A DNA stretch of 40,247 nucleotides. It comes from Desulfobacca acetoxidans. GTDB taxonomy: Bacteria > Desulfobacterota > Desulfobaccia > Desulfobaccales > 0-14-0-80-60-11. Shown piece after piece: positions 8,447-13,846 of this stretch. Under the pieces are notes generated by a model, which was given only the letters and a program-made list of their open reading frames with translations, made no database searches and was not told the origin of the DNA. The stretch's first letter is position 1. Every line of letters begins with the position of its first letter. A program made the translations under genes and the position numbers. The DNA lies in assembly GCA_020722205.1 (NCBI GenBank), contig DYLF01000018.1, positions 1-40,247 of the forward strand, read 5' to 3'.

Positions 8447-8752
8447 TCAGCCTTTTTCCACCAACTTAATAAAATCGTCCATGACGTCTAAGGACTTCTT
8501 TTTCACCACCATGTCGTAAATCTGGTCTTTCACTTTCTTGGGCAACAGCTCAATGCTCTTGGTGGTGGCGGCGTCATATTTGGCCATGGGGAAGAGCTGC
8601 AAGACCTTGTCCCGCTGTTCGGCGGTGCAAGGGACGATGAGGACTTTCATGCCGGCCAGCTCCTCTTTGAGCAACTTCCCCAGGCCGGCATTCTGCAGGG
8701 AGTTGAACCGTTCCTCATTGATCCATATATTAATCGGATAAGTCTCAGCCAT
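8447..8752 (-). CDS. Small uncharacterised protein between sat and aprB
   Basis: I do not recognise a named domain. The 101-residue protein starts at an ATG with an excellent Shine-Dalgarno (AAGGAGG, 8-9 bases upstream), 83 bases after sat, in the same direction, so it is almost certainly a real operon member. It is soluble (no signal peptide or membrane segment), mixed alpha/beta in look, Lys-rich towards the C-terminus, with one Cys (Cys42 in VPCTAEQRD). As I recall, the Archaeoglobus fulgidus operon also carries a small unknown orf2 between sat and aprBA; whether the two are related cannot be judged here. A role as a chaperone, regulator or linker for Sat/Apr is only inference. Confidence 0.85.
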   Translation of the reverse strand: MAETYPINIWINEERFNSLQNAGLGKLLKEELAGMKVLIVPCTAEQRDKVLQLFPMAKYDAATTKSIELLPKKVKDQIYDMVVKKKSLDVMDDFIKLVEKG

Positions 8753-8835: not shown

Positions 8836-10113
8836 TTATAAAGGCTCAATGCTAAAGGCTGGCTTGGCCTTTTGCAGATATTCCTGGGTGACGAAAGGAG
8901 AGCCGAAGCCGTATTTCTTGGAGGCTTCCATGACCACGTCAAAGACCTCCGGCCGGAAGATCAGGCGAGTGGGCTTCACTTCGTCCATGATGATGGAGCG
9001 GATCTTGGTACCGCTGAACTTCTGGAGTTCCTTCCAGTGCCCGCACAGACCGATGCAGGTCACTTCCCCGCAGTGTGGGCAATAGGCCCATTCCAGGACA
9101 TAGATGGGAGTGATGTTCAATTTTTCTTTGGGGATGCTCATCAGCAGGTGGTGGGCCTGATAGGAATGATAATAGGTGCCGACGCCGGCATGGTCCCGGC
9201 CAAACATGTGGTGGGTAAGCCCCAGATTGGTGCGGATGATGGAGTGGTGCACCGCCTCCCGAGGGCCGGCATAGCGCATATCCCAGAAGGTCATGGTCAC
9301 CATATGAATGTCTGCGCGGAAGTAGCCGGATTTGCGCAACTCATCCTGGGTGAGGACGATGGCCTCGTCAATGTAGTCGCCAACCCGCTTTTCACCTACA
9401 ATACAGTTGACCAATATGCCGGAAATGGCCTTGCCCATGGTCTCCATCTGCTCCACCGGGCTGTCACCGTGGGCGGCGATGTAGGCGTGTTTCATCAACC
9501 ATTCATGGCCGGAGTGAGGCACGTTCCGGGTCTGGTGGGCCACAATCTTGATCCAGTTCTTTTCCGCAAACTTTTGCCGGTGCTGCCGGGGGGTAAGAAA
9601 ATAGGGGGTAAAAGGTTCCCGGACTTTGGGTTCATTAACCAGGGTGATTTTGCCGCCCAGGAATTTGTCTTTATAATTATAAGTCCGCTTGACACCTGGG
9701 TGTTTTTCCTCTTTGGTGCCGTACACATCCTGGGCCATAGACTCTTTGTCATAAGTATAAATCTCTTCGATATCAAAGATGGCGAGGGGATTGCCGTCGT
9801 AAGTGAGAAGGACAGAGTCCCCCACCTTGAGGCCGTACTGGGCGATCTCCGCATCCGAGATGTCGTAAACGATGGGGATGCTCCAGATGGTGCCGTCAGT
9901 AAGCTCCATTTTCTTGCAGGTGGTCTCCACATCGGCCTTTTTCATGAAGCCCTCGATGGGCGAGAAAAACCCATAGGCGATGCCGATGGCCTCGGTTGCC
10001 ATCTGCCGACTGGCCGGCATGGTTTTTAACCCCGCGATTTTCTTTTTGGCTTCAGCCTTATCTGTTATCACCCTTTCTACCAAAGGCTTACCGCCGTGAC
10101 CGGTATACTGCAT
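8836..10113 (-). CDS. sat: Sulfate adenylyltransferase (ATP sulfurylase), dissimilatory type
   Basis: Sat activates sulfate with ATP to adenosine 5'-phosphosulfate plus pyrophosphate, the first step of sulfate respiration. The 425-residue protein has the catalytic QTRNVPHSGHE block at 194-204, GRDHAG at 305-310, and a metal-binding CPHCGEVTC..CGH set (Cys345, 348, 353, 357, His359) typical of the dissimilatory homo-oligomeric enzymes. There is no APS-kinase extension. The ATG at 10113 has a modest Shine-Dalgarno (AAGGGG). It is the first gene of the sat-apr-qmo unit, with a promoter about 130 bases upstream. Confidence 0.97.
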   Translation of the reverse strand: MQYTGHGGKPLVERVITDKAEAKKKIAGLKTMPASRQMATEAIGIAYGFFSPIEGFMKKADVETTCKKMELTDGTIWSIPIVYDISDAEIAQYGLKVGDSVLLTYDGNPLAIFDIEEIYTYDKESMAQDVYGTKEEKHPGVKRTYNYKDKFLGGKITLVNEPKVREPFTPYFLTPRQHRQKFAEKNWIKIVAHQTRNVPHSGHEWLMKHAYIAAHGDSPVEQMETMGKAISGILVNCIVGEKRVGDYIDEAIVLTQDELRKSGYFRADIHMVTMTFWDMRYAGPREAVHHSIIRTNLGLTHHMFGRDHAGVGTYYHSYQAHHLLMSIPKEKLNITPIYVLEWAYCPHCGEVTCIGLCGHWKELQKFSGTKIRSIIMDEVKPTRLIFRPEVFDVVMEASKKYGFGSPFVTQEYLQKAKPAFSIEPL

Positions 10114-10248
10114 ATCTTTCCCCTTTCTGTGTGTGTGAGTTTCGTCGGGCTGCCCGGAGCAGTGAGATCGACCATGCGCTTGTCGTTAAAAATTAAAACT
10201 CGTCAAAATGGAAGAGAAACTTTTCACATCTTACACATGCAATGAAGC

Positions 10249-10277
10249 ATTTAATATAAGTTTGTGAACATTGTCAA
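10249..10277 (-). promoter_or_regulatory. Predicted sigma-70 type promoter of the sat-apr-qmo operon
   Basis: On the minus strand a perfect -35 TTGACA (10272-10277) is followed after 17 bases by TTAAAT (10249-10254). Transcription would start near 10242, giving a leader of about 130 bases before sat. A/T-tract DNA lies directly upstream of the -35 box (separate entry). Confidence 0.65.
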
Positions 10278-10316: not shown

Positions 10317-11150
10317 TTACCAGTTGACCTGGTAGCTTACCGTCAGCTCTTGCCGCCCCCTAAGCTTCACGGCCGGCCCGGGGACAATCTGAAAGCTTTC
10401 CCCTTTCACTTCCAAGAAAGTGGATTCCCCCAGGATGATGTCGGCCCCGGATTCTTTGGCCAGTTCCAGCAGACGGGCGGCTACATTGACCACGTCGCCG
10501 ACGAGGGTGAAATCCATGCGCTGGGGGGAGCCGATGTTGCCCAACACGGCCTCACCGGTGTTGATGCCGATGCGCAGGCCGGTGATGGGAGTGGCGTTGT
10601 CTTGCCGCATTTTCTGGAGCCGCCGTTGCATGGCCACCGCGCAGGCCACGGCCTGGCTGGCGGCTTGGGGGACATCCAGGGGGGCGCCGAAGAAAGCCAT
10701 CATAGCGTCTCCCAGAAACTTATCCAGAGTGCCGTGGTGCTCGAACACCAGGTCCACCATCTGGCTGAAGAACCGGTTAAGAATTTCCACTACCTGGCTT
10801 GGGTCCAGCCTTTCCGACAGGGAGGTAAAACCCTTGATGTCGGCAAACAGCACAGTGATGTGCCGCCTCTCTCCCCCTAATTGCAGCATTTGGGGATTTT
10901 TCAGAATCTCCTCGCACATGGCCGGGCTGACATAGCGGGAGATGGTGTCCCACAGCAGTTGTTTCTGCTCATAGAGGCGCAGGCGGCTTCGCAAGGACGC
11001 CTCATGGCCGGCCTCTTCCTGGGCGATTTCCTGCAGCAGATGTTTGAGCTCCGGATCGTCCGTCTCCGCAGCCAGGGCCAAATAACTCTGGCGGGCCTCC
11101 AACTCGTGAGAAATTGCCAGTTCTATGGCTTGCAGGATGCTCAAGTCCAT
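10317..11150 (-). CDS. Class III adenylate cyclase with N-terminal rubrerythrin-like (ferritin-like) helix pair
   Basis: The C-terminal part (about 88-277) is a class III nucleotide cyclase. Metal-binding Asp104 (FADIKGF) and Asp148 (FLGDAMM), transition-state Asn222 and Arg226 (VNVAAR) are present, and the Lys144/Thr215 pair suggests ATP as substrate. The first 55 residues match the first half of a rubrerythrin domain: E16-x2-A-R-x2-Y, then E46-x2-H49, the diiron-ligand pattern. I place the start at ATG 11150 because GGGAG lies just upstream; an in-frame ATG at 11264 would add 38 residues but has no ribosome binding site. Length from 11150 is 277 residues. The gene lies on the same strand just upstream of sat. 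A redox-, oxygen- or iron-responsive cyclase is the inference. Confidence 0.88.
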   Translation of the reverse strand: MDLSILQAIELAISHELEARQSYLALAAETDDPELKHLLQEIAQEEAGHEASLRSRLRLYEQKQLLWDTISRYVSPAMCEEILKNPQMLQLGGERRHITVLFADIKGFTSLSERLDPSQVVEILNRFFSQMVDLVFEHHGTLDKFLGDAMMAFFGAPLDVPQAASQAVACAVAMQRRLQKMRQDNATPITGLRIGINTGEAVLGNIGSPQRMDFTLVGDVVNVAARLLELAKESGADIILGESTFLEVKGESFQIVPGPAVKLRGRQELTVSYQVNW

Positions 11151-11246: not shown

Positions 11247-11326
11247 GGCATAATAATAATCCAAAAGATCAAAGATGGCGAATCTGGTTGGGGCTGCTGA
11301 GGTTGACTTTCAGAGGAGGAATTTTT

Positions 11327-11713
11327 ATGACTGGGGCAAAAATGGTGGAAGTGGTCATCTATGACACTCCTACTGCGGCCTCCTCCGGTTGCAGTTGCGG
11401 TTGCGGCCATCATCAGGGGACTGCTCAGGCTCATGAGCACGAGCATGGTGACCCGCTGGCCAAGGTCAGCATGGAAATGCAGGCCAAGGCCTTGGCGATG
11501 ACTTTGGAGGCCGCCTTTCCGGGCAGAGTGAAGGTGGAATATATTAACGTCCTGCAAGACCCGCGGGGGCCGTCGCTACCGCAGACATCCCTGCTCTGCT
11601 CTCTTGCCTACCCCACCCCTCTGGTTTATCTCAACGGCCGGGGCCGGTTTGCCGGGGCTATCCCTGCGGAGCGCATCAGGGAAGAAGTGGGCAGGTTGCT
11701 GAGTGAACAGTAA
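11327..11713 (+). CDS. Cys/His-rich protein with thioredoxin-like fold features, function unknown
   Basis: The start is ATG 11327, nine bases after AGGAGG; an in-frame codon at 11288 would add 13 residues but lacks a binding site. The 128-residue product opens with a beta-strand (VEVVIYD), then CSCGCGHH (Cys22/24/26, His28/29) and an AHEHEH run (36-40), a likely metal site. A helix, a second strand (RVKVEYINV) and the YPTPLVYLNGRG segment follow; the Pro before a strand resembles the cis-Pro of thioredoxin folds, and the layout recalls ArsD- or YuzD-like proteins. No signal peptide is seen. A metal- or thiol-handling role is inferred, nothing more specific. It probably shares a transcript with the next gene. 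Confidence 0.8.
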   Translation: MTGAKMVEVVIYDTPTAASSGCSCGCGHHQGTAQAHEHEHGDPLAKVSMEMQAKALAMTLEAAFPGRVKVEYINVLQDPRGPSLPQTSLLCSLAYPTPLVYLNGRGRFAGAIPAERIREEVGRLLSEQ

Positions 11714-12857: not shown

Positions 12858-13307
12858 CTAGCCGGCAGCGTTTAACTTCTCGCCCACGACCCGCCCATAA
12901 TCCTGGCAGGCCTTCATGCCTTCGGCCTTATCAATCATGGCCTCTTTGAGGTTAAATGAACCCAAATCGGTCATGTTCATGTCGAAGACGTATTGCATGG
13001 TTTCATAGATGTATTTGGGGGCATCGCCGCTGTGGGTGTAGGAGCCGAAGGCGCCTCCCACTTTGCCCTGGAGTTTGGCCTTCTGCGCCAAAAAGAGGAA
13101 AGTTTTCATGCCTTGGGTCATGTCCCGGTGGTAAGTGGGGGAGCCGAAAAGGTAGCCATTGTAACCCTGCAAATCTGCCTCTGTTTTGATATCGGAGATT
13201 TTCTTCACTTCGACCTCATTCCCCGAAAAACGCACCCCCTCCGCCATATACTGGGCCATTTTTTCAGTGTGCCCGGTTCTGCTGTCGTACGCAATCAATA
13301 CCTTCAT
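12858..13307 (-). CDS. Flavodoxin-family protein
   Basis: The 149-residue protein has the FMN phosphate loop at residues 7-14 (YDSRTGHT), then GSPTYHRDMT near 58-67 and the GAFGSYTHSGDAP region for the flavin ring, as in WrbA/flavodoxin-type proteins. The start is ATG 13307, seven bases after AAAGGAG; the longer frame from a TTG at 13328 would place the ribosome binding site inside the gene. It is the last gene of the oxygen-defence operon, 93 bases after desulfoferrodoxin, and could act as an electron donor there or in central metabolism. Confidence 0.9.
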   Translation of the reverse strand: MKVLIAYDSRTGHTEKMAQYMAEGVRFSGNEVEVKKISDIKTEADLQGYNGYLFGSPTYHRDMTQGMKTFLFLAQKAKLQGKVGGAFGSYTHSGDAPKYIYETMQYVFDMNMTDLGSFNLKEAMIDKAEGMKACQDYGRVVGEKLNAAG

Positions 13308-13400
13308 AGCCTCTCCTTTCTCAGTCAATATTTGAGATGCCGGTCAAGGTCGGCCAGCCGTTAAGCATTACCGCGAGCAACAGGCGATTTGCCGAGGCTG

Positions 13401-13775
13401 CTAAGCCTTCCAGAGGCCGTGCAGGTTGCAGTATTCCCGGGCGGTCACTTTTTCGGCCTGAATTTCAAAAACAGCCTCAGGTGCCTGTCCCGGTTGCAGG
13501 AACTGCCGGTAGGCTTTGCCGTCGGCAATGATTTCGATCCACTCAATGTAGTGTTTCTCCTCCATGGGGTGGGGTACACCGCCAACCTTCACTCTGAAAC
13601 CGCCGGAGATTTTTTCCACCACCGGGACATGTTTTTCCTTGGCGGCATCCACGGTGTTCTCCACAAAGTTTTTCATCGGAACGCCGCAACAGACCAACTG
13701 TCCCTGCCCGGCATGCAACACTTCCACGATGTTGCCGCAAACTTCACATTTGTAGATCTGCAATTTTTCAGTCAT
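13401..13775 (-). CDS. dfx: Desulfoferrodoxin (superoxide reductase, two-iron type)
   Basis: It reduces superoxide to hydrogen peroxide without making oxygen, protecting anaerobes. All ligands are seen in the 124 residues: the desulforedoxin-type iron at Cys10, Cys13, Cys29, Cys30, and the catalytic iron at His49 (EKHVP), His69, His75, Cys116 and His119. ATG 13775 is chosen since AGGAGG lies six bases upstream; the ATG two codons earlier overlaps that site. The gene lies between a small zinc ribbon gene and flavodoxin, and rubredoxin, its usual electron donor, is first in the same operon. Confidence 0.95.
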
Positions 13776-13846
13776 CGCCATCCTCCTTTAGATGTAGGGC
13801 CTGGGGGCCTTTAGGAAAAAATTATAAGGAAAAAACTTGGCCTAAT

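Follow-up and report, generated by a model that had tools for sequence, protein, structure and literature searches.

A half-ferritin hairpin fused to a class IIIb adenylate cyclase in the Desulfobaccales: a candidate di-metal input to cAMP signalling

Within the window (the whole 40,247-nucleotide stretch of Desulfobaccales DNA analysed here), a gene on the reverse strand encodes a soluble, cytoplasmic-type adenylate cyclase of 277 aa, in which the usual input domain is replaced by an N-terminal, two-helix half of a rubrerythrin/ferritin-like domain. The first-pass annotation had described this protein as a cyclase fused to half a rubrerythrin and had proposed that iron, or its oxidation state, controls cAMP output. 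Our analysis confirms the fusion itself, on stronger grounds than first stated, and partly supports its interpretation as a sensor.

Domain architecture and conservation of the fusion protein

The gene occupies 10317..11150 of the reverse strand, with an ATG at 11150 and a stop codon at 10319-10317. A longer frame opening with TTG at 11264, present in the open reading frame list, was ruled out, since the orthologues start at the same methionine as the ATG at 11150 or at an adjacent position. Residues 9-63 match the Pfam Rubrerythrin profile PF02915 at 32.4 bits (cut-off 22.8), over profile positions 3-59 of 137 only, and residues 96-270 match the cyclase profile PF00211 at 95.3 bits (cut-off 21.9). 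Each of the 27 orthologues matched PF02915 independently (E <= 0.01). Chance resemblance to ferritin can be ruled out, as the score lies above the curated cut-off and the orthologue family spans the order, and so can a local or mis-assembled fusion, the gene being present as a single copy in 28 of the 29 genomes of the order (22/22 among good genomes, those with a completeness of 90% or more and a contamination of 5% or less).

An AlphaFold2 single-chain model (mean pLDDT 88) comprises helices at residues 5-29 and 33-70, followed by the transducer segment and a cyclase domain of ordinary fold; pLDDT is about 91-97 across residues 11-60 of the hairpin, and the N-terminal part modelled by itself gave the same hairpin. 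On the basis of PF02915, this model and the EncFtn structures that are its best PDB fold matches, we assign the half-ferritin hairpin to residues 5-60 (10971..11138, reverse strand), helix 1 being residues 5-29 and helix 2 beginning with residues 33-60. The chain contains one hairpin and half of the PF02915 profile, and a four-helix bundle with both ligand halves is absent, in agreement with the original description of a half-rubrerythrin N-terminus with a single helix pair. When the hairpin was searched against the PDB with Foldseek, the top 16 matches were all EncFtn-type half-ferritins, EncB fitting at 0.5-0.6 Å over 54 residues; below EncB came further EncFtns and COG1633 rubrerythrin-like proteins, and entries for diMn- and diNi-sulerythrin were also among the fold matches. 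The shortness of the domain makes the E-values of this search weak, the best (0.065) being insignificant alone, and the sequence evidence therefore bears the weight. A search of BFVD with the hairpin gave generic helical and ferritin-like matches only.

The ligand pattern described previously, E16-x2-A-R-x2-Y and E46-x2-H49, is present as stated. E16, A19, Y23, E46 and H49 are invariant in 27/27 orthologues and R20 in 26/27, so that the three residues on whose conservation the earlier proposal hinged (E16, E46 and H49) are retained throughout; all three sit on conserved helix faces. The 27 orthologues come from approximately one order and are 61-72% identical to the window protein, so this invariance partly reflects shared ancestry. 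Residues other than candidate ligands are also fixed, including the invariant stretch SRLRLY, and the hairpin is the best-conserved part of the protein, with a mean entropy of 0.53 bits versus 0.80 for the catalytic core. When the cyclases were aligned with EncFtns and with the half-ferritin histidine kinases described below, the sole invariant positions were E16, Y23, A43, E46 and H49. The spacing of E16, Y23, E46 and H49 (+7, +30, +33) is identical to that of E32, Y39, E62 and H65 in EncFtn, where E32, E62 and H65 form the iron centre of the Rhodospirillum rubrum protein (PMC5012862), Y39 lies ~4.5 Å from this centre (PMC11202242) and mutation of E32, E62 or H65 impairs metal binding and ferroxidase activity (PMC5012862, PMC11202242). 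By this correspondence E16 (11103..11105, reverse strand), which is invariant in the orthologues, kinase fusions and EncFtns alike, is a predicted metal ligand; Y23 (11082..11084, reverse strand) is the predicted iron-centre tyrosine, in view of its invariance and of the role of its EncFtn counterpart (PMC11202242); and the invariant E46-x-x-H49 (11004..11015, reverse strand) would supply the bridging glutamate and a histidine ligand.

Residues 61-92 (RYVSP...LGG; 10875..10970, reverse strand) continue helix 2 into a transducer segment common to ordinary class III cyclases, and are followed by the catalytic domain (residues 93-277; 10320..10874, reverse strand), delimited by PF00211 and the catalytic residues. 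D104, K144, D148, T215, N222 and R226 match Pseudomonas aeruginosa CyaB (3r5g) position by position and represent the two metal-binding aspartates, the Lys/Thr adenine pair and the Asn/Arg transition-state pair of the subclass IIIb set, upholding the claim that all cyclase catalytic residues are kept. A paralogue in the same genome (L004) has E and S in place of K and T, and the catalytic-residue test therefore discriminates. The domain is thus a class III adenylate cyclase of subclass IIIb, predicted from its sequence to synthesise cAMP as a homodimer. In three cyclase paralogues of the same genome, the open frames span 665-772 aa and the cyclase is preceded by long regions, and the nearest other cyclases, in 395 genomes of the phylum, align from residue 60 onward only; the hairpin hence occupies the place of their other N-terminal regions.

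Distribution and genomic neighbourhood

The 25 named matches in genome collections are labelled Desulfobacca, Desulfobaccales, Syntrophobacterales/Syntrophales or unresolved deltaproteobacterial MAGs, and the gene is very probably present in the cultured type strain of Desulfobacca acetoxidans. A further copy, 63% identical, comes from a MAG (G137) assigned to another family. Viral origin was ruled out, as the search of viral contigs found no relatives and the N-terminal part was not found on plasmids. A profile search of the phylum retrieved histidine kinases of 340 aa that carry this half-ferritin at the N-terminus (PF02915 + HisKA + HATPase), and a targeted search placed three of these in three genera of one other Thermodesulfobacteriota family (L137, L138 and L139). 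These kinases keep the E/Y/ExxH set and, since the hairpin is found on kinases as well as on cyclases, the half-ferritin behaves as a portable input module. L079 and L088 also belong to this half-ferritin HisKA/HATPase kinase class, and the genome of the window also has a free-standing, EncFtn-like half-ferritin in a 102-aa open frame (L005; G000:C52:55770).

The next gene downstream of the cyclase is sat (8836..10113, reverse strand; PF01747 + PF14306), encoding ATP sulfurylase. In the family of the window the cyclase gene lies directly upstream of sat, in the same direction, at 18/18 loci with enough flank (the window and 17 others), and aprB, aprA and qmoA lie beyond sat as far as the flanks reach; in the sister family, which includes Desulfobacca acetoxidans, sat is not adjacent to the cyclase. 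The position just upstream of sat, to which the first-pass annotation drew attention, is therefore a fixed feature of one family and not of the other. Moreover, sat has its own promoter between the two genes (10249..10277, reverse strand), with TTGACA at 10277-10272 and TTAAAT at 10254-10249, the former being present at 17/17 other loci of the family. This conserved promoter means that sat can be transcribed independently, and both strict co-transcription and co-regulation with the cyclase are unproven.

The cyclase-sat gap also contains, 44-53 bp past TTGACA at 17/17 other loci, a TGTGA-N6-TCACA palindrome with at most one mismatch. In the window the corresponding CRP/HcpR-type operator position (10213..10228, reverse strand; TGTGAAAAGTTTCTCT) is weak, with 2 mismatches, and lies 49 bp after TTGACA; it was read from the gap sequence, the automated best match having overlapped TTGACA instead. 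The palindrome falls just after the -10 element of the sat promoter. In Desulfovibrio, the same CRP-like signal has been predicted ahead of both sat and apsAB, and HcpR was named as the probable repressor (Rodionov et al.; PMC545781). The genome of the window encodes three cyclic-nucleotide-binding proteins, and the Arg-Ser/Thr motif typical of cAMP binding is kept in L082, a stand-alone domain, and in L080, a membrane protein with rhodanese and MauE/DoxX regions. The sole member with a CRP-type DNA-binding domain, L081, does not have this motif, leaving direct CRP-cAMP feedback on sat unsupported, and any effect of cAMP on sat is probably not exerted through a classical CRP.

Several other features of these loci were observed. 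At L038, L042, L043, L045, L048, L053-L056 and L059, a distant sat (~30% identity) takes the place of the usual one, and the cyclase, the promoter and, at loci whose flank extends far enough, aprBA are retained. A DUF6955 protein is encoded between sat and aprB (8447-8752, reverse strand) and, in the compared loci, is found only with the sat type of the window. The divergent neighbour of the cyclase (11327-11713, forward strand) encodes a protein of 128 aa without a Pfam match that has a Cys/His-rich N-terminus (SSGCSCGCGHH...HEHEH), and stays beside the cyclase in many family members. Shortly upstream (12858-13781, reverse strand) the open reading frame translations resemble flavodoxin and desulfoferrodoxin (superoxide reductase). 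Open frames for cyclic-nucleotide-binding proteins similar in length to L080 (G000:C177:14176) occur in 5/7 genomes of the order searched (495-533 aa), and two rubrerythrins are encoded on the same contig as L080.

Proposed sensing mechanism and alternative readings

We consider it somewhat probable, and the best explanation at hand, that a cyclase with this half-ferritin input is a di-metal sensor that gates cAMP synthesis. Hairpins from two chains would pair, bringing E16, E46 and H49 of each, with the adjacent Y23, into one di-metal, probably diiron, centre. Pairing of the hairpins would be altered according to whether this centre is empty, diferrous or oxidised, and the continuous helix 33-70 could relay the change to the transducer segment and thereby set cAMP output. 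In an anaerobe, the likely signal would be ferrous iron in the cytosol or the oxidation of that iron by O2 or peroxide, and in one family the output would presumably be relevant to sulfate activation. The data above establish the fold class, the ligand set, its conservation, the catalytic residues and the replacement of the usual input domain; we infer metal binding, the identity of the metal, the pairing mode and the coupling to activity. The iron-dependent assembly of EncFtn offers a precedent for metal-gated pairing.

The geometry of pairing requires closer consideration. In the AlphaFold2 model, helix 2 runs unbroken from residue 33 to residue 70 into the transducer, which implies parallel chains in the cyclase dimer; H49 lies ~32 Å from residue 70. 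In class III homodimers that have a helical transducer, the helix ends are expected to come together. Antiparallel pairing of the hairpins would leave these ends ~60 Å apart (21 residues x 1.5 Å, twice), a separation that a single compact cyclase dimer could accommodate only if the helix broke or the site lay between dimers. The iron-centre dimer of EncFtn is an antiparallel four-helix bundle (PMC5012862). Thus the suggestion that two halves pair, such that one dimer serves both cyclase and diiron centre, gains a precedent for the pairing from EncFtn and meets a difficulty in its orientation. The hairpins may pair in parallel around a site with non-ferritin geometry, the helix may break, or the iron site may link different cyclase dimers.

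The last of these options amounts to a separate reading, in which hairpins belonging to separate cyclase dimers meet at the metal site to form an EncFtn-like ring or chain, and iron controls higher-order assembly rather than geometry within the dimer. It would suit both the antiparallel pairing at the EncFtn iron centre, where iron drives dimers into D5 decamers, and the rigid, 38-residue helix 2, which favours a parallel cyclase dimer and leaves an antiparallel site to neighbouring dimers. However, the fusion does not have the short third helix that forms part of the other (non-iron) interface of EncFtn, and we regard this arrangement as unlikely. Rather less likely is a metal-free hairpin that acts as a mere dimerisation or stutter element, its Glu and His residues being conserved because they pack, form salt bridges or contact a partner protein. 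Long hairpins of helices often serve as input elements and many of the conserved residues are not ligands, as in SRLRLY, but across families the invariant residues reduce to the ferroxidase-centre set and one Ala, and a hydrophobic face that carries acidic and His side chains would be costly if no metal were bound. The hairpin might instead bind another metal (Mn or Zn) or be a tethered peroxidase or ferroxidase that does not regulate the cyclase: ferritin-like sites take several metals, as the sulerythrin matches illustrate, and rubrerythrins act as peroxidases. Continuity of the helix into the transducer and reuse of the hairpin on histidine kinases point to signalling instead, and this is the least probable of the three.

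Returning to the di-metal sensor, we tentatively extend the proposal to a portable class of metal/redox input, in which half-ferritin hairpins are carried by a cyclase in the Desulfobaccales and by a histidine kinase in another Thermodesulfobacteriota family. Each chain would bring half of a diiron centre, and iron would assemble or switch the complex, possibly in a parallel, non-ferritin geometry; we see the case for this wider class as falling a little short of even. If it is true, there would be no sensor site before two chains come together, so that iron (or O2/peroxide) could act on second-messenger output by simple physical means, and sulfate reducers would possess a ferritin-type iron/redox sensor for cAMP signalling whose gene is, in one family, locked beside those for sulfate activation. 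The idea is directly testable because candidate ligands, an enzyme and a cultured strain (Desulfobacca acetoxidans) have been identified.

Comparison with known systems

The closest relatives of the hairpin in fold are the EncFtns (R. rubrum Rru_A0973, Myxococcus xanthus EncB/EncC and Pyrococcus furiosus EncFtn), which share the two-helix half-ferritin and the E/Y/ExxH set with identical spacing. In EncFtn the iron site arises only on pairing of chains, and by analogy the same is predicted for the cyclase. Unlike EncFtn, the fusion protein has its half-ferritin attached to a signalling enzyme, and its helix 2 runs straight on where that of EncFtn turns into the short third helix. It scores below the EncFtn cut-offs (PF22277, 15-18 bits versus 27; the NCBIfam EncB/EncFtn models NF058679, 37-40 versus 90, and TIGR04535, 31-34 versus 125), and it ends in the cyclase domain, no encapsulin targeting tail being recognised by eye. 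The rubrerythrin/COG1633 proteins share the E-x6-Y and ExxH motifs and the PF02915 match above cut-off; the fusion differs in having the first half of the domain only, without the second E/ExxH pair and without a rubredoxin part.

Class IIIb cyclases such as CyaC of Spirulina and P. aeruginosa CyaB resemble the fusion in fold, in the six catalytic residues and in the RYVSP transducer segment, and differ from it in the input domain. The first-pass annotation knew of no described signalling protein of this make-up, and our search of the open-access literature likewise turned up no account of a cyclase or kinase that carries a half-ferritin or rubrerythrin, a scope within which absence does not prove novelty. 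The concept that comes closest is the hemerythrin-GGDEF sensor. To our knowledge, the diiron signalling switches known so far use a complete hemerythrin domain. In Bhr-DGC of Vibrio cholerae, the redox state of such a diiron module switches a second-messenger enzyme (PMC9388753). Bhr-DGC and Bhr-HD-GYP resemble the fusion in joining a diiron four-helix module, the four-helix diiron site being predicted for paired half-ferritins, to an enzyme of nucleotide second-messenger metabolism, but theirs is a complete hemerythrin of an unrelated domain family, with five His ligands in one chain, and the messenger is c-di-GMP. No hemerythrin family is among the Pfam matches of the fusion, and its hairpin has one invariant His, H49. 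The half-ferritin histidine kinases share with the cyclase the N-terminal half-ferritin input and the same E/Y/ExxH set, and differ in their HisKA-HATPase output and in the bacterial family that carries them.
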